Below are positions 10,122 through 56,176 of a stretch of 64,000 nt of DNA, piece after piece. Below the pieces are notes generated by a model that was not told where the DNA came from, did not search any database, and saw only the letters and a program-made list of their open reading frames with translations. Origin of the DNA: an uncultured Muribaculaceae bacterium (GTDB taxonomy: Bacteria > Bacteroidota > Bacteroidia > Bacteroidales > Muribaculaceae); NCBI GenBank assembly GCA_947525975.1, contig CANNVE010000006.1:62001-126000 (forward strand), given 5' to 3'. Each line of letters starts with the position of its first letter. Position 1 is the stretch's first letter. Both the position numbers and the translations under genes were made by a program.

Positions 10122-11828
10122 TTATTTTTTCTGCTCCTTCTCCCAGCTGTCTTTAAGCGCGATGGTGCGGTTGAATACAAGATGATCGGGAGTAGAGCTG
10201 TAATCAGGCGTGAAGTAGCCTATGCGCTGGAATTGTAGCTTGGCTCCCTGCTTGGCTATCTCGGCGGCGTATGGCTCGATCTTGACGCCTTTCACCACTT
10301 TGAGCGAATCGGGATTGAGCATGTCGCGGAAGTCGCGATCAGGCTCGCCTGCGGGATTTTCCACGCTGAAGAGTCGGTCATACATCCTCGCTTCGGCGTC
10401 TACGGCATCCTTGGCCGACACCCAGTGGAGCGTGCCCTTCACCTTGCGGTTGGCGCCGGGCAGACCGCTGCGCGATTCGGGATCGATGGTGCAGCGGAGC
10501 TCTGTGACGTTGCCATCGGCGTCCTTGATCACGTCTTCGCATTTGATGATGTAGGCACCTTTGAGGCGCACTTCGCCGCCGGGGGCGAGACGGAAGAATT
10601 TCTTCGGAGGATTCTCCATGAAGTCTTCGCGCTCGATGTATATCTCGCGGCTGAAAGGCATCTGGTGCACGCCGCCGTTTGCATCTTCGGGGTTATTCTC
10701 CATCTCCACCATCTCAGTCTTGTCCTCAGGATAATTGGTCAGCACCACCTTGAGCGGATTGACCACGCCCATCACTCGGGTGGCTATGCGGTTGAGGTCG
10801 TCGCGCACGGCGTGCTCAAGCAGGCTGATGCTGTTGAGGGCCTCATACTTGGTGTATCCTATGGTGTCGATGAAATTGCGTATCGACTGCGGGGTGAATC
10901 CTCGGCGACGCATGCCTGAGATGGTGGGCATGCGCGGATCGTCCCAGCCGTCGACAAGGCCTTCCTTCACCAGCTGCAGCAGCTTGCGCTTGCTCATCAC
11001 GGTGTAGGTGAGGTTGAGGCGGTTGAATTCGATCTGGCGGGGGCAATACGTCTCATCGGCGAGCTCCTTGACGAAATATTCGTAGAGCGGGCGGTGCACC
11101 ACGAATTCCAGGGTGCAGATCGAGTGGGTCACGCCCTCGAAGTAGTCGCTTTGGCCGTGGGCGAAGTCATACATGGGGTATACCTTCCAGGTGGTGCCTG
11201 TGCGGTGATGCGGATGCTTGATGATGCGATACATTATAGGGTCGCGGAAGTGCATATTGGGCGAAGACATGTCAATCTTCGCGCGCAACACGCGCGCGCC
11301 TTCATCAAATTCACCGGCGTTCATGCGCATGAACAGGTCGAGGTTTTCCTCCACCGAGCGGTTGCGGTAGGGGCTTTCCTGTCCGGGAGTCGAGGGATTG
11401 CCTTTCTGCTCGGCTATCTGCTCTGAGGTCTGGTCGTCGACGTATGCCTTCCCTTCCTTGATCAGGCGCACGGCCAGATCAAAGAGCTGCGGGAAATAGT
11501 CAGAAGCATAGTAGAGGCGGTCGCCCCAGTCAAAGCCAAGCCAATGTATGTCTTCCTTGATCGAGTCTACGTATTCCACATCCTCCTTTACCGGATTGGT
11601 GTCATCGAAACGCAGATTGCACGTTCCGCCGAATTTTGCGGCTATGCCAAAGTCCATGCAGATGGCTTTTGCGTGACCTATATGCAGATACCCGTTGGGC
11701 TCAGGGGGGAAACGGGTGTTGAGCCTGCCTCCATTCTTGCCCTCACGCAGATCATTAAACACTATCTCTTCAACAAAGTTAAGGCCTTTTGCCTCCTCTG
11801 GAGCCGCTGATTTGATGTTTTCAGCCAT
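10122..11828 (-). CDS. glnS: Glutaminyl-tRNA synthetase
   Basis: Class I aminoacyl-tRNA synthetase that charges tRNA-Gln directly. At 568 aa it has the normal length for GlnRS. The HIGH motif is in [11 protein letters not shown] (HIGH at 49-52), and the KMSKS equivalent is VMSKRK near residue 277. The C-terminal beta-barrel anticodon-binding region ends [14 protein letters not shown]. It is the first gene left of the divergent intergenic region 11829-12160 and probably leads a glnS-TPR(-purL) transcript. Confidence 0.98.
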
Positions 11829-11856
11829 AATATTCTTTATATTGTGTAATTAATCG

Positions 11857-11864
11857 CAAAATTA
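11857..11864 (-). promoter_or_regulatory. -7 box for glnS
   Basis: Minus-strand TAATTTTG, an exact TAnnTTTG match, about 30 bp before the glnS ATG. No TTTG is seen at the right distance for the -33 element. Confidence 0.55.
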
Positions 11865-12009
11865 GCCAATTTCCGTCAAATAACGCATATCCGCAGGCTA
11901 TTTTTTTAGAAAACGCGCTCAGATAGCCTCACGCCCATTTGGCTGATGCGCCGGAAAGCGGCGGTACGGAGCCGTCTGGCACCGAATTTTCTACACGCGC
12001 AGCCCCCAA

Positions 12010-12123
12010 TGTAGATAAAAAGCCGGGGAATGTAGATAAGTCGGCCAAAATGTAGATAACTTTTATCCGATGTAGATATTTGCGGCCGATTGTCGATAAC
12101 TTTTGACCAAAGATGCCGATAAC
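12010..12123 (+). repeat. Six phased direct repeats TGTAGATAA
   Basis: Copies start at 12010, 12031, 12051, 12071, 12091 and 12114, spaced 21, 20, 20, 20 and 23 bp, that is two helical turns. The first three are identical TGTAGATAA. The others read TGTAGATAT, TGTCGATAA and TGCCGATAA, so they drift toward the promoter. The last copy ends one base before the -33 TTTG. Sequence between units is mostly unrelated, so this is an array of binding sites, not a simple tandem duplication. Confidence 0.9.
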
Positions 12124-12124
12124 A

Positions 12125-12156
12125 TTTGGGCACTAAAAAAATTTAGAGTAATTTTG
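12125..12156 (+). promoter_or_regulatory. Consensus promoter of the HU/SPOR gene, apparently leaderless
   Basis: TTTG at 12125-12128, a 20-bp spacer and TAATTTTG at 12149-12156 match the Bacteroidetes consensus exactly. The expected start of transcription, about 4-5 nt after the box, coincides with the GTG start codon at 12161. A stop codon in the -7 box itself (12149-12151) excludes any upstream start in frame. Confidence 0.8.
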
Positions 12157-12160
12157 CGGT

Positions 12161-13099
12161 GTGAATTCCCTGATTAGGCATATCGAATACTTGATGTCGC
12201 GCAACGACTGCGTGATCATCCCCGGCATCGGAGCCGTGCTGGCGCACTACCAAAGCGCCCGCATCGACTGCGACACCTTGACTATTATACCTCCATCAAG
12301 GGTATTCGCCTTCAACCCCGCCCTCAAGCAGTCTGACGGGCTGCTCGCCTGCTCGCTCGCGAAGGCCGAAGGCATCAGCTACGATGCCGCCAGCGCGATC
12401 GTGGCCTCATGCACCGAGGCGATGCTGCGACAGCTCTACTCCCAGGGCGAGCTGCCGCTTGGCCGGCTCGGCACCCTGTCTATAGCATCAGGAGCGCTCG
12501 CGCCTGAATTCCGCACCTTCGTGTCGCCGTTGTCGAGTGCCTCCACATGCGGGCTCCCGCTCTTTGATTTCAGCCCGGCCGCCTCAGCCGCCCGCGATCA
12601 AGCGCCTGCAGCCGTCGCCTCTGTGCGGGCATACTCGCCTGCAGGCAGGTTTGTGCGCGTGGCCGCATCCGTGGCCTTGCTTCTGGGCATCTGCATGGTG
12701 GCGTCCACTCCGATATCGGTCGACAACGCCACCCTCGCATCCCTCACCCCGTCGGTGCAGAAGACTCCGGTAGAAGCCCTTATGCCGGCCGATGCTCCCG
12801 CCGCGAAGCAAATGCCGTCGATCCTGCGCATCACAGGCAGCAACAGCCCCATTGCGGAGGCGGAGGAAGCCCCCCAGCCCAAAGAGCAGCCAAAATATCT
12901 GGTGATAGTGGGGTCATTCACCTCCACCGACGAAGCACGCCGCTTCATATCGCTCAACGACCCTTCCTGGCAGATCATCGAGGCCGAAGGCCGCATACGA
13001 GTATATTCCGAGGGCTTCGCCAATCAATCTGACGCCTACATGGCCGTGCGGCACGACCGCGAGAAATACGCCGGCGCCTGGGTCTACAGGGTGAAATAA
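12161..13099 (+). CDS. HU-CCDC81 / SPOR domain membrane protein
   Basis: A 312-aa protein. Residues 1-110 match the Bacteroidetes HU-CCDC81 pair (LIRHIEYLMSRNDCVIIPGIG at the start). One membrane helix lies near 167-188 (FVRVAASVALLLGICMVAS). A C-terminal SPOR-like domain follows a charged linker (KYLVIVGSFTSTDEARRFI to the end). SPOR domains bind denuded peptidoglycan at division sites, so a link between a nucleoid-like fold inside and the wall outside is inferred. The start is GTG; family homology begins within the first few residues, and the next ATG (12194) would remove conserved sequence. The mRNA seems leaderless. Confidence 0.85.
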   Translation: MNSLIRHIEYLMSRNDCVIIPGIGAVLAHYQSARIDCDTLTIIPPSRVFAFNPALKQSDGLLACSLAKAEGISYDAASAIVASCTEAMLRQLYSQGELPLGRLGTLSIASGALAPEFRTFVSPLSSASTCGLPLFDFSPAASAARDQAPAAVASVRAYSPAGRFVRVAASVALLLGICMVASTPISVDNATLASLTPSVQKTPVEALMPADAPAAKQMPSILRITGSNSPIAEAEEAPQPKEQPKYLVIVGSFTSTDEARRFISLNDPSWQIIEAEGRIRVYSEGFANQSDAYMAVRHDREKYAGAWVYRVK

Positions 13100-33978: not shown

Positions 33979-36312
33979 ATGAAGAAAATCACGACTCTTT
34001 TTTGCGCAGCAGCCATGCTCTCGGCCTGCGCAGGCAGCCACGAAGACGATGTGGACGCAAAGGTAGACGCTCTTTACGAAAACATGTCGCAGGAAGAGCG
34101 CATCATGCAGCTGCGCGGCTGTATGATGGATGTCCTTTTCGATGAAAACGGCAACCTCGACCCGGCGAAGTGTGATTCGCTGATACCCAACGGCATAGGT
34201 CACTTTTGCCAATACGCGAGCCAAAAGCCTCTCGATCCCGACGTGCTTCGCGACAAGGTGGCAGCTTTGCAGGATTGGCTGATGCACAATACGCCCAACG
34301 GCATTCCGGCCCTCTTTCACGAAGAAGTGCTCTCGGGCATCAACACCCTCGGAGCCACCATATATCCGCAGCAGATAGGCCAGGCCGGCTCATTCAACCC
34401 CGAGCTGATGGAGACTAAGACACGCCAGACCGCCACCGCCATGCGCCGGATGGGCGGAGTGCTGTCGCTATCGCCCATGGTCGACGTGTGCCGCAATCCT
34501 TCGTTCAACCGACTTGAAGAATCATACGGCGAGGACGACTATCTGTCGGCCGTCATGGGCACAGCCTTTGTCAACGGCTTGCAGCAAGGCGACCTCAAAA
34601 AAGGCGTGGGCACATGCGCCAAGCATTATCTCGGATATGGCGGCGGTGGCGATGCGAGCGAGAAAGAAATGCTCGAAGAGATACTCCTGCCTCATGAAGC
34701 CATGATCAGAGTGGCCGGATGCAAGGCCGTGATGCCCGGCTATCACGCCGTCAACGGCACGAACTGCGTGGCCAACGACTACATCCTTCAGGATATACTT
34801 CGCGGATACGTAGGATTTGACGGCATGGTGGTGAGCGACTACACAGCCATCGATCAACTGCCCGCCGCAGACAATGCCGAAAAGGCCGCGATGGCCATAA
34901 ACGGCGGCAATGACGTGGATTTCCCGCACGGCAATTGCTATGCCAGCCTGCCTGAAGCCCTGGAGCGGGGCCTAGTGAGCGAGGAGACACTGGAGAGGGC
35001 CGTGAAGAATGTGCTCAGATATAAATTCCGCGCGGGCCTATTCGATGACGACGCCTATCTCTACGACACAGCTCACATCACGCACGACACCCCCGAAGAG
35101 CGGCAGACGGCCTACGACATAGCATCGCAGTCGGTGGTGCTTCTGCAAAATGACGGCTCGCTCCCTCTCAAAGGCAAAAAGCTGGTGTTCGTCACCGGCC
35201 CCAACGCCAACTCGATCTGGGCCATGTGCGGCGACTACACCTTTCCCTCGATGAATTATTTTTGGAAAGGAAACACCGCAGAGGTGGAAAGTCCCCGCAT
35301 CGTGAAGCTGCTCGACGGCATGGAATCTCGCCGACCCGCCGACATCGACATCACCTACTCGAGAGGTTGCGACTGGACCGACACCATAGAGACGAAATAT
35401 TCGCAGGCAGGCGACGAGCGCGCTTGGGAATACGGCCTGCTCCACCGCAAGGTGGACTTTGGCGAGAAGGCCGACCGCGCCGAAGCCCTGCGCATGGCCA
35501 AGGATGCCGATGTTATCATAGCCGCCATGGGCGAAAATGTGATGCTCTGCGGCGAAAACCGCGACCGGCAGGGCCTTAAGCTGCCCGGCAGCCAGGAAAA
35601 ATACGTCAACGAACTGCTGGCCACCGGCAAACCCGTGGTGCTGGTGCTCTTCGGCGGCAGGGCGCAAGTGATCTCAAGCATAGCCGACCGATGCGCGGCC
35701 ATCATCCAGGCCTGGTATCCGGGAGAGGAGGGTGGCAACGCCGTGGCCGACATCCTCTACGGCAACGTATCGCCATCGGGCCGTCTGTCGGTGAGCTACC
35801 CCAACGAGGAGGTCTATGCCCCCCTGTGCTATATGTATTCAGCCGATAAGGACTCTCGCGTGGCATGGCCGTTCGGCCACGGCCTCAGCTACACCGACTT
35901 CGTCTACGATAACCTCGACGCCGAGAGCGGAGCGTCAACCTCATCTGAAGGCATAGCAGTGTCATTCACCGTGACCAATACCGGCAAGGTCAAGGCCGAC
36001 GAGGTGGCGCAAGTCTACATCTCTCCCGCTGAAGCCGACAGCCCCTTGCGCCCGATCAAGCTGCAGGGATTCGCTAGAGTGCCGCTCGCTCCGGGCGAGA
36101 CCCGAAAGGTGACCGTCACGCTCCGCCCCGACCAATTCGGATACTACACCAACGACGGCCGGCGCCGATGGAACATCGATCCCGGCCAATACATCGTGAA
36201 AGTAGGCTCATCATCAGACGACATCAGACTGCAGCGCGAAATCACCCTCCAAGGCAAAAAAGTGACCAAGCCCATCCGCGACCGCTACTTCTCCGCGACG
36301 CAGGTCGAGTGA
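33979..36312 (+). CDS. Glycoside hydrolase family 3 lipoprotein (beta-glucosidase/xylosidase type)
   Basis: A 777-aa exported glycosidase. The signal peptide ends in a lipobox (AAMLSACAG). The GH3 N-terminal barrel shows GVGTCAKHYLGYG and the nucleophile region FDGMVVSDYTAID. The C-terminal alpha/beta sandwich has AAMGENVMLCGENRDRQGL, and a fibronectin-like domain closes the protein (SFTVTNTGKVKADEVAQVYI). The substrate (beta-glucosides or xylosides) cannot be told. The ATG at 33979 is chosen for the signal peptide. No SusC/SusD genes lie nearby, so it is not in a recognisable PUL. Confidence 0.92.
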   Translation: MKKITTLFCAAAMLSACAGSHEDDVDAKVDALYENMSQEERIMQLRGCMMDVLFDENGNLDPAKCDSLIPNGIGHFCQYASQKPLDPDVLRDKVAALQDWLMHNTPNGIPALFHEEVLSGINTLGATIYPQQIGQAGSFNPELMETKTRQTATAMRRMGGVLSLSPMVDVCRNPSFNRLEESYGEDDYLSAVMGTAFVNGLQQGDLKKGVGTCAKHYLGYGGGGDASEKEMLEEILLPHEAMIRVAGCKAVMPGYHAVNGTNCVANDYILQDILRGYVGFDGMVVSDYTAIDQLPAADNAEKAAMAINGGNDVDFPHGNCYASLPEALERGLVSEETLERAVKNVLRYKFRAGLFDDDAYLYDTAHITHDTPEERQTAYDIASQSVVLLQNDGSLPLKGKKLVFVTGPNANSIWAMCGDYTFPSMNYFWKGNTAEVESPRIVKLLDGMESRRPADIDITYSRGCDWTDTIETKYSQAGDERAWEYGLLHRKVDFGEKADRAEALRMAKDADVIIAAMGENVMLCGENRDRQGLKLPGSQEKYVNELLATGKPVVLVLFGGRAQVISSIADRCAAIIQAWYPGEEGGNAVADILYGNVSPSGRLSVSYPNEEVYAPLCYMYSADKDSRVAWPFGHGLSYTDFVYDNLDAESGASTSSEGIAVSFTVTNTGKVKADEVAQVYISPAEADSPLRPIKLQGFARVPLAPGETRKVTVTLRPDQFGYYTNDGRRRWNIDPGQYIVKVGSSSDDIRLQREITLQGKKVTKPIRDRYFSATQVE

Positions 36313-36344
36313 AACACACCACACAGTAACCCTGATATGAAAAA

Positions 36345-36384
36345 GCTCCTCATGTGCCTACGCATTTGTGCGAACATGAGGAGC
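36345..36384. terminator. Hairpin between convergent GH3 and TPR genes
   Basis: Stem GCTCCTCATGT / ACATGAGGAGC (36345-36355 and 36374-36384). On the minus strand it is followed by T5, so it chiefly ends the minus-strand WG/TPR unit. Confidence 0.8.
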
Positions 36385-36412
36385 CAGTCTATTTGTGCCG
36401 TATGCTTACAAT

Positions 36413-37186
36413 TTAGTATCCTACTGTGACATTCTCCCATCGAGATTGTTTAATAGTTACTCCATTCTTTGCTGCTTTAGTTCGTATATTTTTCATTTCA
36501 CGCTGAGCCTCACGCAAAGAACGCTTCATCTGTACATAATTACCAGATGACATACCTTGTCCGGTACTGCCACGCTTTCGTCCAGACTTGGATGTCGCAG
36601 AATAACCTGTATTCGTCAAGGATTCGTAACACTGTTCAGCTCGTCGTTCCCAATTACGATATTGAGCCTCAAAATTTCCGGAAGCACCACCATGATAATC
36701 TTGAACTCCATAATTACCTGATAAAGAATATTGAGGTGTATAATATCCATCTGAAGATTGCCCTGTTATCTGCATCAGTGCATTAGAAAAGTCTCCGAGT
36801 GCATCCCAAACAGAATAATTTACATTATCATTTTCCTCAACATAATTCGATTCTTCAAGTTTAACAAGGATGTCGTGTTTAAGTCCTAATGCATATTCTT
36901 CATCAGGCCAATATTCAAGACATATTTCTGTTGCAGTAAGAGCTTCTTCATACATACCAAGATTATACAGACATGTTGCATAATTTTCAAACGCAGCATT
37001 CTCTTCAGGCTTGAGCATCATTAATTGCTTCAGAATATCCATAGATTGTGCGTACTGCTCGTTCATAAATAAACTTTCAGCCTTATCCCACAATTTATTG
37101 AACGCATATTCACTAATTTCCCCATCAGTCTGGCTATATAGCCATCCATCATGCCCCACCGGATTATACATATCCATATACGCCAT
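36413..37186 (-). CDS. TPR protein of an AT-rich patch
   Basis: A 257-aa protein without a signal peptide. Two TPR-like units lie at about 27-95 (AFNKLWDKAESLFMNEQYAQ; NYATCLYNLGMYEEALTATE), then a low-complexity Tyr/Ser/Gly stretch. A basic C-terminal region (YVQMKRSLREAQREMKNIR) ends QSRWENVTVGY. I recall similar C-terminal tails on Bacteroidales WG/TPR proteins, which I cannot confirm here. It overlaps the end of the WG-repeat frame by 23 bp, suggesting coupled translation or an originally joined gene. Base composition is far more AT-rich than the flanks, suggesting transfer. Confidence 0.7.
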   Translation of the reverse strand: MAYMDMYNPVGHDGWLYSQTDGEISEYAFNKLWDKAESLFMNEQYAQSMDILKQLMMLKPEENAAFENYATCLYNLGMYEEALTATEICLEYWPDEEYALGLKHDILVKLEESNYVEENDNVNYSVWDALGDFSNALMQITGQSSDGYYTPQYSLSGNYGVQDYHGGASGNFEAQYRNWERRAEQCYESLTNTGYSATSKSGRKRGSTGQGMSSGNYVQMKRSLREAQREMKNIRTKAAKNGVTIKQSRWENVTVGY

Positions 37187-38210
37187 TTAAATCATCATGC
37201 ACTTTTATCACACCTTCAGACACCTGATCCCCAATTTCTATATTATTGGGATAGTGATACTCTTTACCATTTTTGTCTATAAGAAATTTCAAACCATCTC
37301 TACTAACTACAGCGACGCCCTCGTTAAACCCTTCTAACGCAACTCTATCAAAAGGTCCAAATTGTCTAATATTATAAATATCACAGATGTATTGTTTTTC
37401 CGATAGAGGATTAGTATAGATTATAAATTCCCCTGATAATGTTGGATGTTTAACATTATTCTTAATGGAATTTGACACAGAGAAGTACAATTTATAAGTA
37501 GCATCATTTGCATAAATTCCGTCTGTGACTGAAGCCCACGATGCTCCTTGCAGGCTTTCCAATTCTAATCCACTATAATCATAATATTTCATCAGTGAAT
37601 CATTAAAAAAATCATTTGGATCTCGTGAACTTATAAAGTCCTTATTAAAAAAATATGTCTTGTCTTTAGCTCCACGGAACAATTCTTCTCCATCTTCATT
37701 TACTATCACGCTGATATAATTCAATTCCGGACTAATACTGTCATGAAGTTCCACTACATTATTAACCCAAAAGACTTTGTAAGAGTTCGATTCTCGTAAT
37801 TTATATTTCGGTTCTACTACAATCTCATTAGTTATTGTGTTTCTTATGCCCCAAAGTTTTTTTGTCTCATCCAAAAAGACTTCATGTTTTTTGGAACTTA
37901 ACTTTAATTTTTCTGGATTAATAGGCTCTCCCTTAAATGTAAACAAATTATATTCACCTGTTTTATTATTAACAACCACATATCCTATATTGCCATATTC
38001 TATCACTACAGAATTTGGATAATAATTACCTGACAATACATTTATCACACCTTTGGGGCCATTTGCATAATCTGCTGAACTAAAACTGAGGAAAGGGTAT
38101 TGTCCATAAAAATTTATGTAGTCAAATTCGAAACCAGTAAGAAAGTTTCTACCATCAAAGAAGGCTGTTTTACCATCAGATTCTCTCACAATCTTATACC
38201 ACCCAGGCAT
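37164..38210 (-). CDS. WG-repeat protein, downstream part (frameshifted from the upstream signal-peptide part)
   Basis: A 348-aa frame with degenerate WG-like repeats, for example FPFLSFSSADYANGPKGVIN-type blocks, LWGIRNTITNEIVVEPKYKL and VAVVSRDGLKFLIDKNGKEY. The first Met lies inside a WG unit (MPGWYKIVRESDGKTAFFDG), and there is no export signal, so this is not a natural N terminus. The frame in front of it (TAT ATA TAT GAT TTT GAT GAA) joins the upstream ORF if one AT is removed from the (AT)5 tract at 38223-38232. WG proteins are usually exported or membrane proteins of unknown role. Confidence 0.7.
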   Translation of the reverse strand: MPGWYKIVRESDGKTAFFDGRNFLTGFEFDYINFYGQYPFLSFSSADYANGPKGVINVLSGNYYPNSVVIEYGNIGYVVVNNKTGEYNLFTFKGEPINPEKLKLSSKKHEVFLDETKKLWGIRNTITNEIVVEPKYKLRESNSYKVFWVNNVVELHDSISPELNYISVIVNEDGEELFRGAKDKTYFFNKDFISSRDPNDFFNDSLMKYYDYSGLELESLQGASWASVTDGIYANDATYKLYFSVSNSIKNNVKHPTLSGEFIIYTNPLSEKQYICDIYNIRQFGPFDRVALEGFNEGVAVVSRDGLKFLIDKNGKEYHYPNNIEIGDQVSEGVIKVHDDLNGVYGYV

Positions 38211-38530
38211 TTCATCAAAATCATATATATATCATAATCGCCTGGTTTTAAGGTATAATTACCTTTTGTGTCAATAATTCCTTCTTTGTGATTTTGATCA
38301 GTAACGATTGCTGTTCCTCGACATAAATCACCTGCTGATTTAAAACTATATGGAATCACTAGTTTTCCATTACCATTCACATAGCCATGTAGTTGAACTT
38401 TTGTAGAGTAAGAAGGAGTAAAGCCCTCATGGAAATCGGTTCCTGATACACCATACAACGCCCAATCAGGAGTTGTTGCTTTTACCGTAAAGACGATAAA
38501 CACTAACAAAATAAATAGGAAATTCTTCAT
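38186..38530 (-). CDS. WG-repeat protein, upstream part with signal peptide (truncated by frameshift)
   Basis: A 114-aa frame. The signal peptide MKNFLFILLVFIVFTVKA is followed by two WG-like units (LHGYVNGNGKLVIPYSFKSA; AIVTDQNHKEGIIDTKGNYT). It ends in out-of-frame residues after the dinucleotide tract. Removing one AT gives a continuous frame of about 455 aa with the next ORF. Together they form either a recent pseudogene or a phase-variable exported protein; a sequencing slip is a third possibility. Confidence 0.7.
   Translation of the reverse strand: MKNFLFILLVFIVFTVKATTPDWALYGVSGTDFHEGFTPSYSTKVQLHGYVNGNGKLVIPYSFKSAGDLCRGTAIVTDQNHKEGIIDTKGNYTLKPGDYDIYMILMKCLGGIRL
38223..38232. repeat. 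(AT)5 tract at the frameshift point
   Basis: Ten bases of alternating A and T at the junction of the two WG frames. Four units instead of five would restore one open frame. Confidence 0.9.
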
Positions 38531-38656
38531 TATTGCAATTTTTTTGATTGGAATTAGTTTACAAACAGAATTGTCATTTCTTTGACAAGAAAAAAGGTAT
38601 CTTTCACATAGGCCTTAAATTATCACATCCGAATGGCTCATCTCAACTCGGAAAAC

Positions 38657-38757
38657 AAAAAAATTGCGTGAGAGCAATACCATTACCCATCCTACGATTT
38701 GAGGCTCTGACATTGCCCTTCTTGGCAGAATGAGCAACGAGCAGAGACCTCACGCAA
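38657..38757 (-). ncRNA. Candidate structured RNA with intrinsic terminator (minus strand)
   Basis: On the minus strand a perfect 9-bp outer stem TTGCGTGAG (38757-38749) / CTCACGCAA (38672-38664) is followed at once by T7. Inside are the nested pairs CTCTG/CAGAG and TGCC/GGCA. This closed structure of about 95 nt ending in a U tract looks like a small RNA or a terminated leader of the WG gene, which starts 127 bp downstream. It matches no family I recognise. Confidence 0.4.
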
Positions 38758-39079
38758 ATATGTAAACACACGTCAAGATCATCCTTTTAACGATCATTGA
38801 CGCAAATACATATCGAGAAAGGCATCTACCATTGCTTCAATCTTGACCAAGATAACGAATTTGTCAGATTTCAAATCGTCAAGAAAAAGCGTTTAGTAAA
38901 CGCAATCCATTATGTCTACACCCAAACTGAACGAAAAAATACATTAAGTCTGAATGTCACCACAAATATAAATATTTATTTTCAAAAAAAGATACCTTAT
39001 CTCGTTTTTTATGTAAACCTTATACAAATTCATACATATTTTTGGTGGCGGGCGGGACGGGAATGTCGTTTTTTTTCGC

Positions 39080-39100: not shown

Positions 39101-40060
39101 ATGGCAAGGAAAGTCTATTATAAATACAATGCCGCCACTGACAGCTATGAGCGCGTCTACCCATCGGCCAAAGAGCGCTGGTGGGCGGTGGTGCGTCAAT
39201 TCATCATTGGCGTGGGCATAGGGGCCGTGATCTTCGCCACTGTGTATTATTTCTTCGACTTTCCCAAGGAAAAGGCTCTGCGGCATGAGAATGACCGCTT
39301 GCGCCTGCGCTATGAGATGCTCGCCAAGCAGGCCGACGAAGCCTTCGCGGTGATGCAGGACATAGCCGCCCGCGACAATAATTTCTATCGCGTCATGCTC
39401 CAGGCCGAACCCATAACGGCGGCACAGAGATATGCCGGAGCCGAGATCTCCGCCTCCGACACGCTTAACGACGAGGCTTTGGTTAAATCAGTCTCCGACC
39501 GCCTCAACACCCTCGACCGCCAGGTGTATTCACAAATAAAATCGTTTGACTTCCTTCGGCAGGAGGCCTTGAAACAGAAAGACAGGCTTGAACACGTGCC
39601 GGCCATACAGCCGGTGTCGGAGAGCAAACTGCGGCAGATGGCCTCGGGATACGGCTACCGCGTAGACCCGATCTACGGCACCAAGCGCCTACACGAGGGC
39701 ATGGACTTTTCAGCGCCGGTGGGCACCGACGTCTACGCCACAGGCCGCGGAAAAGTGGTTTTCGCCGGATGGAAGAGCGGATACGGAAACCTCATCGAGA
39801 TAGACCACGGATACAACTACCTTACCCGCTTCGCTCACCTCTCGAAAATCGACGTGAGGCAGGGCCAGACCGTGGAGCGCGGCGAAAAAATCGGAGAAGT
39901 GGGCAACACCGGCAAAAGCACGGGCCCGCACCTGCACTATGAGGTGCGCCTGCGCGGAGTGCCGCAGAACCCGGTGAACTACTATTTCTATGACCTCACC
40001 CCCGAGGAATACGACGAGATGATACGCATGGCCGAGAATGCCGGCCACATGATGGATTAA
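39101..40060 (+). CDS. M23-family peptidoglycan metallopeptidase
   Basis: A 319-aa inner-membrane-anchored endopeptidase. One N-terminal helix lies at about 31-51 (FIIGVGIGAVIFATVYYFF), then a coiled-coil-like linker. The LytM/M23 domain has HEGMDFSAPVGTDVYA (zinc H-x-x-x-D) and HLHYEVRLRG (H-x-H). All zinc ligands are present, so it is predicted active on cell-wall cross-bridges. It is followed at 18 bp by a MerR regulator, then ruvA. Confidence 0.94.
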   Translation: MARKVYYKYNAATDSYERVYPSAKERWWAVVRQFIIGVGIGAVIFATVYYFFDFPKEKALRHENDRLRLRYEMLAKQADEAFAVMQDIAARDNNFYRVMLQAEPITAAQRYAGAEISASDTLNDEALVKSVSDRLNTLDRQVYSQIKSFDFLRQEALKQKDRLEHVPAIQPVSESKLRQMASGYGYRVDPIYGTKRLHEGMDFSAPVGTDVYATGRGKVVFAGWKSGYGNLIEIDHGYNYLTRFAHLSKIDVRQGQTVERGEKIGEVGNTGKSTGPHLHYEVRLRGVPQNPVNYYFYDLTPEEYDEMIRMAENAGHMMD

Positions 40061-40078
40061 CTTATCACGCCCGCCACA

Positions 40079-40468
40079 ATGCCTGAAAGCATAGAAAAGA
40101 AATATTTCAAAATAAGCGAGGTGTCGGAGTTGCTCGGCATCTCCCAGCCCACCCTGCGCTTCTGGGAACAGCAATTCACCATCATCAAGCCCCGCCGCAA
40201 CGACAAGGGCACGAGATTCTACACCAACGAAGACATCGAGAAGATAAAGATGGTGCGCTATCTGGTGAAGGAGCGCGGCCTGAAACTTGAAAAAGCGCAG
40301 GAGATCATCACCCACAACCGCTCGGGAGTGAGCCGCCACTATCAGGCCATCGAGAGGCTAAAAACGATAAGGGCCGACCTCGTGAGGCTGCTGCAGGCCA
40401 TAGACAATGGCCGGCGCTTAGGCAAAAAGACAACCCCACCACCCGTAACCGACCTACCAAATGATTGA
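40079..40468 (+). CDS. MerR-family transcriptional regulator
   Basis: A 129-aa protein with a winged helix-turn-helix of MerR type: KYFKISEVSELLGISQPTLRFWEQQF, then RRNDKGTRFYTNEDI and KIKMVRYLVKERGLKLEKAQ. The short C-terminal region lacks cysteines, so metal sensing is unlikely. The inducer is unknown. It overlaps ruvA by 8 bp and follows the peptidase gene; the M23-MerR pairing is common in Bacteroidetes. Confidence 0.92.
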   Translation: MPESIEKKYFKISEVSELLGISQPTLRFWEQQFTIIKPRRNDKGTRFYTNEDIEKIKMVRYLVKERGLKLEKAQEIITHNRSGVSRHYQAIERLKTIRADLVRLLQAIDNGRRLGKKTTPPPVTDLPND

Positions 40469-41045
40469 ATACATAAAAGGAAAATTTATTGACCTGACGC
40501 CGGCCACCGTCGTTGTTGAGACTCCCGGCGGCGTGGGCTACCTGCTCAACATCACCCTGCCCACCTTCGAGGCCCTGCAAGGGCAGACCGAGGGGAAGCT
40601 GCTGGTGCACGAATCGATACGCGAGGATGCGTGGGTGATGTTCGGCTTCGCCAACGACTGGGAGCGCGCGCTCTTCCGCGAACTCATCGGTGTCTCGGGC
40701 GTGGGCGCAGGCACAGCCCGCATCATCCTCTCATCGATTCCCGCCGCAGAGCTTGAGATGGTAATAGCCAACGGCGAGGAGGCCAGGCTCAAAGCAGTAA
40801 AGGGAATAGGGCAAAAGACCGCCCAGCGCATCATCGTAGACCTGAAAGGGAAAATCAAGCTCACCGACGATGATGCAGCCGGCGCCGACACCCCGAAGAG
40901 CGATGAATTTGACAACGCCCTCGCCGCGCTTGTGGCGCTCGGATTCCCGCGCCCCGCAAGCCAGAAAGCCCTGAAGAAGATATTCGACGCCGACCGGTCC
41001 ACAAAGGCCGAGGTGGCCATCAAGAAGGCCTTCACCATGCTCTGA
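40461..41045 (+). CDS. ruvA: Holliday junction branch-migration protein RuvA
   Basis: A 194-aa subunit that binds Holliday junctions and recruits the RuvB helicase. It starts MIEYIKGKFIDLTPATVVVE (OB fold). Tandem helix-hairpin-helix motifs include GVSGVGAGTARIILSS and AVKGIGQKTAQRIIVDLKGK. A C-terminal UBA-like domain follows (ALAALVALGFPRPASQKALK). Length and layout are standard. The start overlaps the MerR gene by 8 bp. Firm assignment. Confidence 0.97.
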   Translation: MIEYIKGKFIDLTPATVVVETPGGVGYLLNITLPTFEALQGQTEGKLLVHESIREDAWVMFGFANDWERALFRELIGVSGVGAGTARIILSSIPAAELEMVIANGEEARLKAVKGIGQKTAQRIIVDLKGKIKLTDDDAAGADTPKSDEFDNALAALVALGFPRPASQKALKKIFDADRSTKAEVAIKKAFTML

Positions 41046-41092
41046 GCATATAAATCAACCAATCAGAATAATCACCAAAAGCCTTAAATAAA

Positions 41093-43177
41093 ATGAAGAT
41101 CAAGCATCTCATGGCCGCTGCCATGTCGGTCATCTCCGCATCGTGGTGCGGAGCGCAGTCATGGACTGCCGACAACGGCAACGGCACATTCACCAACCCG
41201 CTATTCTACGATGAATATTCCGACCCCGACATCCTGCGCGTGGGCGACGACTATTACCTGGCAGGCACCACCATGCACACAGTGCCGGGCGTTAACATAC
41301 TCCACTCTAAGGACCTTGTCAACTGGGAGCAGATAAGCTACTGCTTCGACAGATATGAGTTTGACGATCCGGCCTTCTCGCTCCAGGACGGCAAGCACAT
41401 CTACGGCCAGGGCATCTGGGCGCCCTGCATCAGATACAATGACGGGAAATTCTACGTCTTCTCAAATGTCAACGGCAAGGGACTGCAAGTCTATGTGGCC
41501 GAAGACCCCAAGGGCCCATGGAAGCACATCAACATGAAGGGCAACATCTATGACCTTTCAGTGCTTTTTGACGACGACGGAAAGGTATACGCCATCCATG
41601 GCTATGGCACAGTGAAATGCACCGAGCTGAAGCCTGACCTCTCGGAGCCAATCTACGAGACCGAGCGCGTGATCATACCCGAGGGCAACGCCGTGGGCGA
41701 GGGCCATCACATGTACAAGATCGACGGCATGTACTACCTTATCTCCACCGATTATATGCCCAACGGACGCACCCTCTGCTCTCGCTCCGAATCAATCTGG
41801 GGCCCTTACGAGACCATCACCATCACAGCCGACGAGACATACGGCTACCACCCTGCAGGCCTGACGCAATGGAAGGGCGGCATCGTGCCCGACGGCAGCG
41901 AATTCCGCCTGCCCGATCCTGACATCCACGCCACAGCCGCTACCAACGCCCATCAGGGAGGCATCGTGTCTACCCCCGACGGACAGTGGTGGGCCCTGCT
42001 GATGCAGGATTTCCACTCAATAGGCCGCACCGTAGACCTTATGCCGATAACATGGGTCGACGGATGGCCGATGATAGGCCTTCCGGGCAATCTCGGACGC
42101 GCTCCGCGCACATGGCTGAAGCCTGACGTGAAGGCTGAGGTAGAGCCTCATGCTCCTTACGACCGCAACGAAAACTTCGACGGAAAGACCCTCGGACGCA
42201 TATGGCAGTGGAATCACAACCCCGACGAAAAGATGTGGAGCCTCGAAAAAGGCAGGCTGAAACTGAAGACGATGCCCGCCGACCAACTGATGTGGGCGCG
42301 CAATACCCTCACCCAGCGCGTGATTGGCCCGAAATCGATAGTCACCGTCGAACTCAATGTCAGCAACCTCAAAGACGGCGACGTAGCCGGACTCGGCAAC
42401 ATCAACGTGCCTTGCTCTTGGGCCGGCATCGTTAAAGAAGGCAAGGACAAGACCATACTCCGATGCTTCGAGCAGGCTCACAATGACACCATCGACATCC
42501 CTGTCACCCTCAAGGACGGTAACATCTGGCTCAGGCTCGTGGGCGACTACGACAATGACCGCGCGCAATACGCCTACTCGCTCGACGGCAAGGAATTCTC
42601 CCCCCTTGGCATGCCCATGAAACTCACATATCAGCTGTGCACATTCCAAGGCTCGCGCGCATCGCTCTTCGCCTTCAACCACAAGGGCGCAAAAGGCGGA
42701 TACGCGCTGTTCGACAATTTCACTGTCGACGAGCCTATGGCCGACCGATCGGGCAACATCCCCTTCGGCAAGAAATTCCGCATGATCAACCTTGCCACCG
42801 ACCGCCCTGCCAAGGCTCTTCCCCACGGTCTCATGCACGACTCCGGAGCCGGCGACAAGTCGGAGCAGACGCAATTCTCGGTTGAAGACCGCGGCAACGG
42901 ACAGGTGGCGCTCAAATGCGCCGACGGCAGATATGTGCGCATCGCCGGCCACGGCATCCCGGGCGACGTGCGCTTCACTCCCGACGCCGGGAAGGCCACC
43001 GTATTCATGTGGCAGGACTATCTCGACGGCCAGTTCATGCTCATGTCGATGGACACCCACACCTATCTGGGCATGAGCCCCACCACCGGCAGCAGCTACA
43101 GCTGCGACTTCAAGGGACCCGACCCTGCCCGCGTCAACGGCTCGGTATTCCGCTGGGAAGAAATTGGAGCCCGATAA
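41093..43177 (+). CDS. Secreted glycoside hydrolase family 43 protein
   Basis: A 694-aa exported enzyme. A signal peptide is followed by a five-bladed GH43 propeller: YSDPDILRVGDDYYLAGTT holds the general base Asp (D44 or D46 region), YDLSVLFDDDGKVYAIHGYG the pKa modulator, and NAVGEGHHMYK the acid Glu. A C-terminal concanavalin-like sandwich (about 360-560) and a final beta-trefoil-like region with repeated TSGxY-type motifs (KCADGRYVRIAG; MDTHTYLGM) follow. Activity on xylan or arabinan side chains is likely for the family. It stands alone, without SusCD. Confidence 0.9.
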   Translation: MKIKHLMAAAMSVISASWCGAQSWTADNGNGTFTNPLFYDEYSDPDILRVGDDYYLAGTTMHTVPGVNILHSKDLVNWEQISYCFDRYEFDDPAFSLQDGKHIYGQGIWAPCIRYNDGKFYVFSNVNGKGLQVYVAEDPKGPWKHINMKGNIYDLSVLFDDDGKVYAIHGYGTVKCTELKPDLSEPIYETERVIIPEGNAVGEGHHMYKIDGMYYLISTDYMPNGRTLCSRSESIWGPYETITITADETYGYHPAGLTQWKGGIVPDGSEFRLPDPDIHATAATNAHQGGIVSTPDGQWWALLMQDFHSIGRTVDLMPITWVDGWPMIGLPGNLGRAPRTWLKPDVKAEVEPHAPYDRNENFDGKTLGRIWQWNHNPDEKMWSLEKGRLKLKTMPADQLMWARNTLTQRVIGPKSIVTVELNVSNLKDGDVAGLGNINVPCSWAGIVKEGKDKTILRCFEQAHNDTIDIPVTLKDGNIWLRLVGDYDNDRAQYAYSLDGKEFSPLGMPMKLTYQLCTFQGSRASLFAFNHKGAKGGYALFDNFTVDEPMADRSGNIPFGKKFRMINLATDRPAKALPHGLMHDSGAGDKSEQTQFSVEDRGNGQVALKCADGRYVRIAGHGIPGDVRFTPDAGKATVFMWQDYLDGQFMLMSMDTHTYLGMSPTTGSSYSCDFKGPDPARVNGSVFRWEEIGAR

Positions 43178-43197
43178 TTAAAAAGGCACTGAAAGAT

Positions 43198-43220
43198 AAA
43201 GCCCGCTGCGAGCGGGCTTT
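43198..43220. terminator. Shared terminator between GH43 and YiiX-like genes
   Basis: Stem AAAGCCCGC (43198-43206) / GCGGGCTTT (43212-43220), loop TGCGA, symmetrical and positioned between convergent genes. Confidence 0.85.
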
Positions 43221-43226
43221 ACTTAT

Positions 43227-43823
43227 TTATATCTTTTTCAGGGCCGGGGAGGCGGCTATGGAGTTGGGGTTCGTGCCGGGCGCTCCCTGGGGGATCGGCT
43301 TGCCCAGGTCATGGAAAAGGTCGATCCAGAATTGAGGCATAGTGTCGGCAGCCATGAAATTCATGGGGATTGACTCAAACACGGGCCTGCCCTCGCGGTC
43401 AAGATACGCGCACTGCACCAGCTCGGAGCAATACATCTTGCCGTTGGCGCAGTCAAACTCCCAGTCGTAGGGCATGCCGATCATCATCCTGGCCCTCTTG
43501 ACCGCCTCTCGCGCATCGGCCACACCGGGGTCGACTCGCATGGCTACCACAGGCTCAAGCATAAACGAATCAAGGGGCGTGGCCACCACGCCCCTTCTCG
43601 TATTCGCCTCTATCACCACCTCTCGGCCATCAATCACATCGTAGATCCCGACATGGGAATATTGCGTGGCTCCGGCTGTGGCTCCGTTGATAGCATCAAC
43701 GAAATCAGACGACCCGCATGTCTGGAACAGCAGGTCGCCTGATCTCAAATCGTCGTTTTCGGCGCATGACGGCGACACGATGGCCGCCGTCAACGCCGCT
43801 ATGATTGATAATTTCAAATTCAC
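43227..43823 (-). CDS. YiiX/YebB-like NlpC/P60-type amidase lipoprotein
   Basis: A 198-aa exported protein with a likely lipobox (AIVSPSCAEN) and the permuted papain-like YiiX fold. LRSGDLLFQTCGSS, then YSHVGIYDVIDG (catalytic His region), and later DCANGKMYCSELVQCAYL (catalytic Cys region). The family is thought to cleave amide bonds in lipids or peptidoglycan. It starts at a 4-bp ATGA overlap with the DUF3298 lipoprotein gene, so both form one operon. Confidence 0.85.
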   Translation of the reverse strand: MNLKLSIIAALTAAIVSPSCAENDDLRSGDLLFQTCGSSDFVDAINGATAGATQYSHVGIYDVIDGREVVIEANTRRGVVATPLDSFMLEPVVAMRVDPGVADAREAVKRARMMIGMPYDWEFDCANGKMYCSELVQCAYLDREGRPVFESIPMNFMAADTMPQFWIDLFHDLGKPIPQGAPGTNPNSIAASPALKKI

Positions 43824-44632
43824 GGTTCGCTCACGTATTGGGCAAATTCAGGATTCAGGAGATTGTGCACATCAAAGAGGCTGAGCACGCATGTAGGCAT
43901 GCCGGCGCTGTAAGGCGCGATCTCATATTGCTGGTAGGTGAAGGCCACGCCGTCAGCAGTCACATAAGGCGGGCAGGCCGGGAGCTTCACCTCGCCTACG
44001 GGCACCAGTATGTCCTTTTCCATAGCCGAAGCGTCGGTCACCTTGAAATACTGCTTGGCGATGGCGTCAACCACCATGCGGCGCAAGTCCTCCATCTTGT
44101 CCTGGGCAAACATGTCGTAGCCCCACTGCTTGCCGTCGGCAAGAGTGAACGTGGCGGCATCGAACACTGACATGCCGTGGGCACCGCCCTCGTAGGCATA
44201 GGCCGTGTCGGTGTAGGTCACATACTTATTGGTGAAATGCACCGGAGACACATTCCAAGAATAGGTGTAAGGCATCGGCTCGTCGTATCCACCGGCTTTC
44301 AGGCTCTCGATGTTTGACTTGATGCTGTCGATGTATTCATTGCCGATAGTCTCCATAAGCTTGCGCACAGGCATCTTCGACTGCTCGCCCTTGGCTCCGA
44401 GGCGGGCTGCTATCCACTTTTCTACAGATTCATAAACGGTGCTGCTTTCCTTGGGGACAGTGACCGCTATGTCTACGTTTGATACCATCTTGCCTGATAC
44501 GACTGAGTCAGACCACTGGAATTGCTGGGTGGAGATGTCAAAATCCATCACTTTTTCCTGTTTGGGCTGGCAACTCATAAGCGAAACGACCGCCGTAGCG
44601 GCAATCGCCATCACTGGCATGTAAGTTTTCAT
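43820..44632 (-). CDS. DUF3298 / RsiV-like lipoprotein
   Basis: A 270-aa lipoprotein: MKTYMPVMAIAATAVVSLMSC forms the signal with its lipobox. A DUF4163-like N-terminal part (DFDISTQQFQWSDSVVSGKM) and a DUF3298-like C-terminal domain (EGGAHGMSVFDAATFTLADGK, then LPACPPYVTADGVAFTYQQYEIAPYSAG) follow. The domain also occurs in RsiV, a lysozyme-binding anti-sigma factor, but no sigma gene lies nearby. An extended frame to 44815 is rejected in favour of the signal peptide. Confidence 0.85.
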   Translation of the reverse strand: MKTYMPVMAIAATAVVSLMSCQPKQEKVMDFDISTQQFQWSDSVVSGKMVSNVDIAVTVPKESSTVYESVEKWIAARLGAKGEQSKMPVRKLMETIGNEYIDSIKSNIESLKAGGYDEPMPYTYSWNVSPVHFTNKYVTYTDTAYAYEGGAHGMSVFDAATFTLADGKQWGYDMFAQDKMEDLRRMVVDAIAKQYFKVTDASAMEKDILVPVGEVKLPACPPYVTADGVAFTYQQYEIAPYSAGMPTCVLSLFDVHNLLNPEFAQYVSEP

Positions 44633-44688
44633 AATTATCTTTTTTCGTTTACTATACAGAGATAAAACGAACATGGGCAAAATAATGT

Positions 44689-47619
44689 TCAGAACGCATG
44701 CTCGCCGGCCTGCAGCTCTACAGGCTTTTCTGCGCCGGGAAGCACCAGAGTGGCCACAGTGCCCTCGGGCACCACAAACCTGTAGCTGACCTTGCCGTCG
44801 TCGCCCACGCGCCATTCGCTCTCGATGCGCCCCAGGCGCGTGTCGACATGCCCCTTGGCCCAGGAGATGGCTCCTGTGGTGTCAGGCTCAGGCTGCAGCG
44901 TGAATCGGCTGAAGCCCGGCTGCGCTGAGTCGCGGCAGATGCCGAGGCTGCGCTCTATCAGCCAAGAGCCCACCGAGCCAAACGAGTAGTGGTTGAAGGA
45001 ATTCATGGAGTTTCCGGCAGGATATCCCTCTCCCTCCACGTATGCGTTGAGGCGCTCCCAGATGGTGGTGGATCCCTGTCTCACCGAATACAGCCATGAC
45101 GGGTACTTGTCATTGGCCAGCACCCGATAGGCTATGTCAGGCCTTCCGATCCTGGAGAAAGCCTCGCATATCCACGGCACGCCCACGAATCCTACATTCA
45201 GGGCGTAGTCATTGTCCTCCACGAGCTTCACCAGATGCGAGGCCATCCGGCGCGTGGTGGCTTCGTCGCAAAGGCCCAGGGCTATGGGCAGCACGTAGGA
45301 TGTATACGTGCCTATGGGTTGGCCTTGGCGCTTGCCGTCGCCAAAAGCGCTGTGCACCGTGCGGCCCTCGGCGTCGACATAAGTGCGGCGGAAGAAAGCG
45401 CGCCTGTCGGCAGCCAGGGCTGCGTATTCAGCCGCATCCCCGCTCTTGCCGAGCGCCTCGGCTATCGATGCCATAATGTCGAGATCGTAGATGTAGTATG
45501 CCTCCCAGAGCAGGCTGTTGTCGTTAAGGTCGTTTTCGGGGCTGAGCCAGTCACCGAGGTCGCCCCAAGAGGGATATGACTGCACGATCAGCCCGGTCTC
45601 GGGGTCGATGGCGTTGTCGCGTATGAAATCCATGTATCGGCGCATGGCGGGATAGTGCTCAGCGAGCATCTCCTTGTCGCCCCATTGCCTCCACATCTGC
45701 CAAGGCACCACAATTCCGGCGCTGCCCCACAGCAGGCCGCCGAAGCCTTCGCCGCGCATCGGGGCTATGTCGGGGAAGCGTCCGTTTTCGGCCTGGCAAT
45801 CCCTGATCGCCAGCAGATGACGCCGCAGGAAAGCCTCCACGTCGGCCAGATACACAGCCGTGTGGCTGAATACGTTGATGTCTCCGCTCCAGCCCATGCG
45901 CTCGTTGCGCTGCGGGCAATCGGTGGGTATCGACACGAAATTTCCGAGCATCGACCAGCATATGTTGCTCCAAAGTTTGTTCACGGCAGGGTCGCTGCAT
46001 TGATAGTCAGCCTTAATGCCGTCGACAGACGACAAGGCCGCCGTGCGCACATCCGCCGGCTCTGGAGGCGTGTCTGTGCCGGTGATCTCAAGGTATTTGT
46101 ATCCGTGCATTGTCTGCCTGGGCGAGAAAGTCTCCTCTCCGCCTCGGCAGATGTATTTGTCCTGCACATGGGCGCTGCGCAGATTTTCGGTCAGGATCTC
46201 GCCCTGGAGATCGCCGAATTTATCAAGGTCGGGATACAGCACTTCGGCGTAGCGGAATGTCAGTTCGGTGCCCGGCTTTTGTCCGCGCAGCGTCACTAAA
46301 GGCACGCCCGCGCAATTCTGGCCCATGTCATACACCCACACACCCGGACGCACCTCCCGGCGATTCAGCGCCACGAGCGTGTCTACGGGGTGCACCGGCG
46401 GGTCGGTCTGCTTCACAAAGTCTACGCCGGAGAAATCGAATTGCGGGTATGCGCCTTCATTATCGGCTATCGCGGCTGCCGGCATCCAGTCTCCGTCATC
46501 AGCCAGATAAGGCCTGCGGCCATCGATCACCTCGCCCTGCATCATCGACGAATACAGGCGAGAGCCGTCGGTGCACACCTGCCAATCTCCCGGAGAGGTG
46601 ACCACCTCTTGGCGCGAGCCGTCGGCATAGTCTATCACGAGGCGGCCGATGAAGGCCTGCCTGTCGCCGAAATAGTTCCATCCCTCCACATAATATGTCG
46701 AGGGGCCTGACCACCAACCCTCTGACAAGGCCACATTCATGGTGTTGGCGCCTTGTCGCATCAAGTCGGTGACGTCATATTCCTGATACGGCTGCGTGCG
46801 GTCGTATTGGGCGGAACCCGGAGCGAAGTATGCGTCGGGGGCCACCGGCGCTCCATTGACGTATGCGTCATATATGCCGCGGGCTGTGGCATAGAGCGTG
46901 GCCTTCGCCACAGGCTTAGCCACCTTGAATGAAGTGCGCAGCATCGGCGATGATTTCAAGCCTGAATCCTTGTCGAAATCGGCCACCACCGAGTGGGGTG
47001 CGCGGTAATTGCTGACGCGAAGCCCCTTCGCGTTTTCTGATCGTTCTACCTTTCCGAGCACCGGATAGGGCAGATATTCGGCTGTCTTCCACTGCTTTTT
47101 CGCCACAGGGCCCAACTGCGGATTGAGGTTGACCGTGCCGGCTATGGAATCATCGACCACTATGTCGGCGTATCCGTAGGTCACGTCGAGCCTTAGTCTG
47201 TGGGAGCCCGGCAATGACAGGGCGCCGGCCGGAATCTCGGCCTGCACGTCGGCTCCGCTTTCTCCTTTGGCGTATCCGCTGCGGTATATGCGCACCACTC
47301 CGTCGGAGGCATCGGGCACCACACGTATGTAGATGGAATCGGGATGAGATGAAAGGTGCCAGATGTTGCGGTAGGGATGAACGAGTCGCGGGTCGGCGCC
47401 GCCGAATTTCACCCACGAATGCGTCCCGGCCTCAACATCCCACCCAAGGCGGAAAGATGGCAAATACTCCGGATAGAAAGTCAGATGATCGGCGTCGGCC
47501 CCCACCCACACGGCATCGGCGAATACGTCGGCCTGCGAAGCAGGAGCGCAATGCCCGTCTAAAGGCTTTAATGCACACACAGTCAACACCAGGCCTATTT
47601 TGAAAAGATTGAATCGCAT
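44689..47619 (-). CDS. Secreted GH78 alpha-L-rhamnosidase
   Basis: A 976-aa exported enzyme. A signal peptide (MRFNLFKIGLVLTVCALKPLDGHCA) is followed by beta-sandwich domains with VALSEGWWSGP and the alpha-rhamnosidase concanavalin-like part. The (alpha/alpha)6 barrel starts near 560 with TDCPQRNERMGWSGDINVF, the family signature around the catalytic Glu, and LLWGSAGIVVPWQMWRQWGD. It probably removes rhamnose from plant polysaccharides or flavonoids. The family assignment is firm; no PUL partners lie beside it. Confidence 0.93.
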   Translation of the reverse strand: MRFNLFKIGLVLTVCALKPLDGHCAPASQADVFADAVWVGADADHLTFYPEYLPSFRLGWDVEAGTHSWVKFGGADPRLVHPYRNIWHLSSHPDSIYIRVVPDASDGVVRIYRSGYAKGESGADVQAEIPAGALSLPGSHRLRLDVTYGYADIVVDDSIAGTVNLNPQLGPVAKKQWKTAEYLPYPVLGKVERSENAKGLRVSNYRAPHSVVADFDKDSGLKSSPMLRTSFKVAKPVAKATLYATARGIYDAYVNGAPVAPDAYFAPGSAQYDRTQPYQEYDVTDLMRQGANTMNVALSEGWWSGPSTYYVEGWNYFGDRQAFIGRLVIDYADGSRQEVVTSPGDWQVCTDGSRLYSSMMQGEVIDGRRPYLADDGDWMPAAAIADNEGAYPQFDFSGVDFVKQTDPPVHPVDTLVALNRREVRPGVWVYDMGQNCAGVPLVTLRGQKPGTELTFRYAEVLYPDLDKFGDLQGEILTENLRSAHVQDKYICRGGEETFSPRQTMHGYKYLEITGTDTPPEPADVRTAALSSVDGIKADYQCSDPAVNKLWSNICWSMLGNFVSIPTDCPQRNERMGWSGDINVFSHTAVYLADVEAFLRRHLLAIRDCQAENGRFPDIAPMRGEGFGGLLWGSAGIVVPWQMWRQWGDKEMLAEHYPAMRRYMDFIRDNAIDPETGLIVQSYPSWGDLGDWLSPENDLNDNSLLWEAYYIYDLDIMASIAEALGKSGDAAEYAALAADRRAFFRRTYVDAEGRTVHSAFGDGKRQGQPIGTYTSYVLPIALGLCDEATTRRMASHLVKLVEDNDYALNVGFVGVPWICEAFSRIGRPDIAYRVLANDKYPSWLYSVRQGSTTIWERLNAYVEGEGYPAGNSMNSFNHYSFGSVGSWLIERSLGICRDSAQPGFSRFTLQPEPDTTGAISWAKGHVDTRLGRIESEWRVGDDGKVSYRFVVPEGTVATLVLPGAEKPVELQAGEHAF

Positions 47620-47644
47620 GAGGATTTTAAGGTTAGTTTGATTG

Positions 47645-47652
47645 CAAAATTA
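47645..47652 (-). promoter_or_regulatory. -7 box for the GH78 gene
   Basis: Minus-strand TAATTTTG, an exact match, 26 bp before the GH78 start, in a 111-bp divergent region. Confidence 0.55.
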
Positions 47653-47695
47653 GTCATTTTTGGCCAAAAATTGAAATTATTCAAATATAAAGCAT

Positions 47696-47703
47696 TAACT
47701 TTG
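47696..47703 (+). promoter_or_regulatory. -7 box for the beta-helix protein gene
   Basis: TAACTTTG, an exact match, 27 bp before the ATG at 47731. Confidence 0.55.
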
Positions 47704-47730
47704 TCTCAAATTCTATGAATTAATCCGCTT

Positions 47731-49191: not shown

Positions 49192-49212
49192 TCATCATCC
49201 AATACCCCCACC

Positions 49213-52264: not shown

Positions 52265-52303
52265 CATCATCAGCCTCAATAAAATAAATCACCGAAAGAT
52301 ATC

Positions 52304-52996: not shown

Positions 52997-53073
52997 TTCA
53001 ACCACAAATAACAGATACACATTCACACATATTTCCAGACCTCAACAAATCAACCTATAATTTTTAAGATTAA

Positions 53074-55445: not shown

Positions 55446-55462
55446 TTGCCATATCGTGAATT

Positions 55463-55505
55463 ATCCTACTTAATGGTGAATACAAAAATTACCATTAAGT
55501 AGGAT
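55463..55505 (+). terminator. Terminator after the exported-protein pair
   Basis: Perfect 15-bp stem ATCCTACTTAATGGT / ACCATTAAGTAGGAT (55463-55477 and 55491-55505), then TTTAATTTC and further T runs. Confidence 0.85.
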
Positions 55506-55541
55506 TTTAATTTCTTTTTTGCTTTTTTTTTGCTTTTATGC

Positions 55542-55572: not shown

Positions 55573-55624
55573 TGGAAATTATGTAAGCGGCCTATATAAT
55601 GGCCATTATCAACAATCTCCTCTC

Positions 55625-56156: not shown

Positions 56157-56176
56157 CCGGCATATTTTTATGTGAG

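Follow-up and report, generated by a model that had tools for sequence, protein, structure and literature searches.

The window analysed here is a stretch of 64,000 nucleotides, positions 62001-126000 of contig 6 in a 2.90-Mb assembly with 56 contigs. Within it, a 332-bp gap separates glnS (10122..11828 on the minus strand, assigned by Pfam) from a divergent gene at 12161..13099 on the plus strand, which we call HU/SPOR. The HU/SPOR protein has an HU-CCDC81_bac_1 domain, a weaker HU-CCDC81_bac_2 match and a weak SPOR match (the latter two just below the Pfam cut-offs), with a hydrophobic stretch between the HU-CCDC81 and SPOR parts. Because it combines these elements the protein may tie DNA to the envelope, and from its domains we regard it as a probable membrane-anchored DNA-binding protein. 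Two plus-strand motifs ahead of the gene, TTTG at 12125..12128 and TAATTTTG at 12149..12156, resemble the elements TTTG and TAnnTTTG, which we take to be the Bacteroidetes -33 and -7 promoter elements. The promoter reading is helped by the word GTAATTTTG, found in 12 of 30 HU/SPOR upstream regions compared with 0.1 expected. The -7-like element ends 4 bp ahead of the GTG start codon (window 12149-12163), so the transcript of HU/SPOR may have almost no leader.

A phased array of 9-bp boxes in the glnS–HU/SPOR gap

Six direct 9-bp boxes occupy 12010..12122 on the plus strand, at steps of 21, 20, 20, 20 and 23 bp. The first three (12010..12018, 12031..12039 and 12051..12059) all read TGTAGATAA, and they are followed by TGTAGATAT at 12071..12079, TGTCGATAA at 12091..12099 and TGCCGATAA at 12114..12122. 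A poorer inverted box, TGTAGAAAA on the minus strand (plus-strand letters TTTTCTACA), lies at 11987..11995, and TTTTCAACA occupies roughly this position in the nearest relative, genome G036. Direct reading of the letters thus confirms the six direct 9-mers at 20-23 bp spacing, and the inverted one, that an earlier sequence-only reading of this DNA had picked out. Since the last box is 2 bp from TTTG and TAATTTTG is 4 bp from the start codon, the array sits where an operator would.

To assess statistical significance, we counted matches to TGTAGATAA with at most one mismatch: the window contains 14, compared with 6.1 expected, and none of 100 shuffles reached 14. Six of these 14 matches fall in 11987-12099. 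The pattern TG[TC]NGATA occurs 6 times in the 332-bp gap, whereas 5000 first-order random copies of it averaged 0.054 and never exceeded 2. When the array word was sought as a tandem pattern, the 2.9-Mb assembly gave three matches, all of them inside the array, and the control gave none. The array is real, and a chance origin is excluded. The word YGTWGATAA is not enriched genome-wide (73 occurrences compared with 67 in the control), and three or more copies within 300 bp are present at only three places in a list read by eye: the HU/SPOR array, the region upstream of a fimbrillin-like gene on contig 31, and a gap beside nadA on contig 19. A comparison with phages gave no DNA match to the gap that holds the array.

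The contig 31 cluster (locus L055, 16626-16677) is a second phased array of the word, reading TGTTGATAA, TGTTCATAA, TGTAGATAA, TGTAGATAA and TGTTGATAA at steps of 10-11 bp. It is directly upstream of the fimbrillin-like (Mfa_like_1) gene. We rejected it as an origin candidate; it sits between a DUF5119 gene and the fimbrillin-like gene, which point in the same direction.

Recurrence of the word in related genomes

The first four boxes of G036 keep the register of those in this genome. The box letters are identical at 35 of 36 positions and the spacer letters at 19 of 34, and glnS is likewise divergent, about 1.4 kb from HU/SPOR. A record titled Clostridium sp. (JAMPBQ010000001.1), which is probably mislabelled, holds the nearest relative of the locus, with a 94% identical glnS.

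We searched for the word TGTNGATAA upstream of HU/SPOR in 30 loci including our own, drawn from 42 genomes with a match to the gene; one truncated locus was omitted and the most divergent ones are absent from the set. The word is present within 250 bp in 14 of the 30 genomes, compared with 0.33 expected and at most 3 in 300 randomisations. In 10 of these 14 it is a single site. In three genomes (G006, G013 and G015), where the 6 kb upstream contain no glnS, one or two boxes lie 53-76 bp ahead of HU/SPOR. The sequence-only reading had proposed looking for the array upstream of the orthologous gene in related genomes. G036, the only relative examined that has the glnS/HU-SPOR divergence, keeps the array and so does not refute the proposal that it marks an origin; 16 of the 30 upstream regions have no TGTNGATAA within 250 bp and 10 have only one, which counts against that proposal. 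Position at a promoter and retention in relatives are characteristic of a DnaA-box cluster outside oriC, and the HU/SPOR array has both.

The same word recurs before the partitioning gene parA, where TGTNGATAA is present within 250 bp in 15 of 30 fetched loci (own included), compared with 0.26 expected, and lies at -92 to -98 in 13 of the 15. Our own parA has no TGTNGATAA within 250 bp, as is the case for 15 of the 30 parA upstream regions in all. In G151, a genome from another family, the word lies between parA and surE. In 25 of 30 parA upstream regions (L146-L175) a conserved CGTGGAACA, resembling half a parS site, is also present no more than 250 bp from the gene. Tandem pairs of the word number 37 in 49 congeners, compared with 5 in the control; order-wide, many tandem pairs are inside genes.

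The HU/SPOR and nadA gaps as candidate replication origins

The sequence-only reading proposed that the array marks the chromosomal origin, at a switch of gene strand. The list of open reading frames agrees with its description of gene orientation around the gap, but only locally: the 20 kb immediately left of the window (contig 40001-60000) returns to plus-strand genes, with 19.0 kb of ORFs on the plus strand and 0 kb on the minus strand. The switch of strand is thus confined to a single short block. Its suggestion of checking GC skew together with gene strand, followed up at contig scale, gave no sign switch independent of gene strand at the gap. Raw skew is negative on both sides (left of 60 kb in 14 of 15 bins, right of 76 kb in 15 of 15), and at fourfold sites the sign of skew tracks gene strand in all six contig bins with genes on both strands. 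Averaged over the two strands, the fourfold-site skew steps down near 80 kb, from -0.07, +0.02 and +0.01 in the bins to 80 kb to -0.14, -0.15 and -0.14 beyond, with its sign unchanged. We covered our own contig 6, 32 stretches of contig 11 of G036, and 20 kb on either side of nadA in 8 relatives and of HU/SPOR in 10 relatives; the 8 relatives have no skew switch at nadA. We therefore set skew aside as an origin marker, because both raw and corrected for gene strand it is noisy and marks neither HU/SPOR nor nadA. Separately, window 36001-39000 has a GC content of 34-40%, a skew of -0.22 and three minus-strand ORFs whose Pfam matches are weak or absent, and is possibly an acquired segment.

Several features do suit an origin at HU/SPOR. 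The boxes cluster in a divergent gap, dnaN is 7 kb from the array, G036 retains the array together with the glnS/HU-SPOR arrangement, and the mean skew has the step described above. In another relative, G021, dnaA (contig 6, L262 15893-17254) is 2.7 kb from the HU/SPOR gene, which starts just past that locus. The dnaA of our own genome is on contig 27, which by itself says little because oriC and dnaA are commonly far apart in Bacteroidetes (PMC4755523). Similarly, in a study of mouse-gut strains that include two Bacteroidetes, origins were assigned from parS and skew and backed by read coverage, and they were not always near dnaA (PMC10197239). The region upstream of our dnaA was itself rejected as an origin; there is no TGTNGATAA there. 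Against the HU/SPOR gap stand the skew and the local nature of the strand switch, the congeners with few or no boxes, a base composition less AT-rich (42% GC, lowest 60 bp 27%) than that of the nadA gap (32% GC, lowest 60 bp 18%), and, as a weak point, the lack of parS on the HU/SPOR contig in any of 29 genomes (1.09 expected, P of zero 0.30). We conclude that the array is very unlikely to be oriC, and that replication more likely starts elsewhere.

A better, though itself tentative, candidate for oriC is the AT-rich gap where nadA and an Xaa-Pro aminopeptidase-like gene diverge (L188 8069-8568 on our contig 19). Its box cluster has gaps of 11, 200 and 43 bp, identical numbers in G036, and the 43-bp gap is present in 9 of 24 parsed nadA loci. 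De novo, TGTTGATAA is the top non-promoter word before nadA, in 17 of these 24 loci compared with 0.5 expected. The count covers 24 of 31 loci, the other seven having no parsed start; TGTNGATAA is missing from six of these seven loci as fetched, and the seventh has one distant site, so TGTTGATAA is present in at least 17 of the 31. Of 30 fetched nadA loci, 8 are without a box near the gene. We also searched for parS, which is present in 45 of 49 congeners (single copy in 40). It adjoins an mnmG-like gene in the six loci inspected, with an apt-like gene on the opposite side in five (these gene names were tested for one locus), and no exact parS was found in our own genome. The nadA contig carries parS, at a distance of 10-46 kb, in 6 of 32 genomes, compared with 1.18 expected (P = 0.0004). 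Both parS P values are post hoc because parS had already been seen in two nadA flanks; they refer to the genomes in which parS is present and the contig size known (32 for nadA and 29 for HU/SPOR), omitting G025 (ten parS) and using rounded genome sizes. Against nadA as oriC count the lack of a skew switch there in the 8 relatives, the nadA loci with no near box, the lack of an exact parS in our own genome, and large clusters elsewhere in two distant congeners: G005 has 8 mixed-direction sites by an S41 peptidase gene (L094 1342-2141), on the same contig as parS and 65 kb from it, and G011 has 13 mixed-direction sites by proA (L101 806-1829). It is possible that these clusters are moved origins.

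Candidate binding proteins and the function of the array

The array word is one letter from the DnaA box TGTGGATAA, and the two words share clusters at L116 and, in another family, at L197 between proline dehydrogenase and oxidoreductase genes. The resemblance to a DnaA box noted by the sequence-only reading holds insofar as the word family forms the conserved nadA cluster and recurs before HU/SPOR and parA, but not for the Escherichia coli R-box consensus TTWTNCACA (PMC4585315), from which the array departs at position 6 (boxes 1-5 have T or G there and box 6 has G, when read as TTATCNACA). That consensus is for E. coli, and the box may vary by lineage. If the word of the nadA cluster is the DnaA box, then the HU/SPOR gap contains several sites of the lineage's box word. 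We aligned our DnaA with E. coli domain IV (1j1v), using a residue numbering assigned in this analysis. Of the eight base-contacting positions named in PMC5043019 (399, 423, 432-435 and 438-439), five differ: our protein keeps R399, R432 and H434, but P423, D433, T435, L438 and H439 are replaced by V, T, A, N and Y, respectively. In the only other DnaA examined, that of G021, D433 is kept, and the single parA box of G021 is TGTGGATAA; if residue 433 helps to set the box letter, this one case is in the expected direction. Comparing the fourth box letter between nadA and HU/SPOR in the nine genomes that have boxes at both, we found full agreement in five, partial agreement in three (our own, G036 and G035) and disagreement in one (G034). 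Shared ancestry may be behind part of the agreement.

The explanation that we consider the most probable, though far from secure, is that the array is a helically phased cluster of the lineage's DnaA boxes (YGTWGATAA), outside oriC, that controls HU/SPOR. DnaA would occupy successive boxes along one face of the DNA, because neighbouring boxes are about two helical turns apart, and the bound DnaA would set HU/SPOR expression, either repressing or activating it, which would couple that expression to the initiation cycle. In congeners the word before parA may couple segregation in a similar way. A multi-site operator, which the sequence-only reading held as its competing model, is the better fit of the two models in that reading. 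Comparable arrangements are described in the literature. The E. coli mioC promoter has five DnaA boxes outside the core origin (PMC4585315), and like it the array has several boxes in or near a promoter, only some of them perfect; it differs in its target gene, its even one-direction phasing and R-box position 6. Box clusters apart from the origin are also known near oriC in Bacillus subtilis and Streptomyces, and as datA and DARS in E. coli (PMC4585315), but the HU/SPOR sites, unlike those, stay at one promoter in congeners. In Epsilonproteobacteria (PMC5043019) there is similarly a group-specific preferred box letter with changes in DnaA helix 5; there T at position 5 is special and binding was demonstrated, whereas in our case most boxes have A or T at position 6 and DnaA is a putative binder.

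The binder could instead be another regulator, or the HU/SPOR protein acting through its HU-type domains, with nadA, parA, HU/SPOR and the fimbrillin gene as targets. We regard this as possible but doubtful. Promoter position, single direction and spacing would suit any operator, the HU/SPOR protein does have HU-type domains, and the phased array at the fimbrillin gene fits a DnaA regulon less well, so that it counts against the DnaA reading, as do the lack of TGTNGATAA before our own dnaA, the HU/SPOR and parA upstream regions without this word, the mismatch to the E. coli R-box and the absence of a genome-wide excess of YGTWGATAA. A regulator of metabolism or of the envelope, however, accounts poorly for parA and for the multi-box, AT-rich nadA clusters that are near parS in several genomes. 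A special form of this idea, to which we give little credence, is that the HU/SPOR protein itself binds YGTWGATAA at its own promoter, nadA and parA, as a DNA tether bound to membrane and septum that would hold the region of the origin at the envelope. PMC10197239 found no known condensin for M. intestinale and B. caecimuris.

Two further explanations do without control of HU/SPOR. The cluster could mainly titrate or re-set DnaA, in the manner of datA, DARS and the Bacillus clusters; with six boxes in 113 bp it is one of the three places in the genome where YGTWGATAA is densest, as would suit such a sink, but sites in congeners remain at the HU/SPOR promoter even where they are single (10 of 14), which suits a promoter function better and makes a sink improbable. 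A functionless local tandem duplication of a short unit would explain the regular 20-21 bp step, but we find it scarcely credible: the spacers vary among copies and have diverged between relatives while the boxes have not, and the word is found singly before HU/SPOR in congeners. The array also resembles plasmid iterons in being direct repeats about two turns apart. It differs from them in that no initiator gene lies beside it among the ten neighbouring proteins tested, which all belong to other Pfam families, and in that its chromosomal context is kept in G036.

The origins and DnaA targets of Bacteroidales are little described. We found no paper on a YGTWGATAA box in this order in the part of the open-licence literature searched (subscription journals were mostly outside the search), and nothing direct in the open-licence literature on CCDC81/SPOR proteins, DnaA contact residues or HU/SPOR with DnaA. 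If our preferred explanation is correct, namely that these boxes bind DnaA and regulate HU/SPOR, it would provide a box word that can be tested, the gap before nadA as a candidate oriC, and HU/SPOR and parA as a small set of candidate DnaA targets, and these two targets would connect the initiation of replication with segregation and division.
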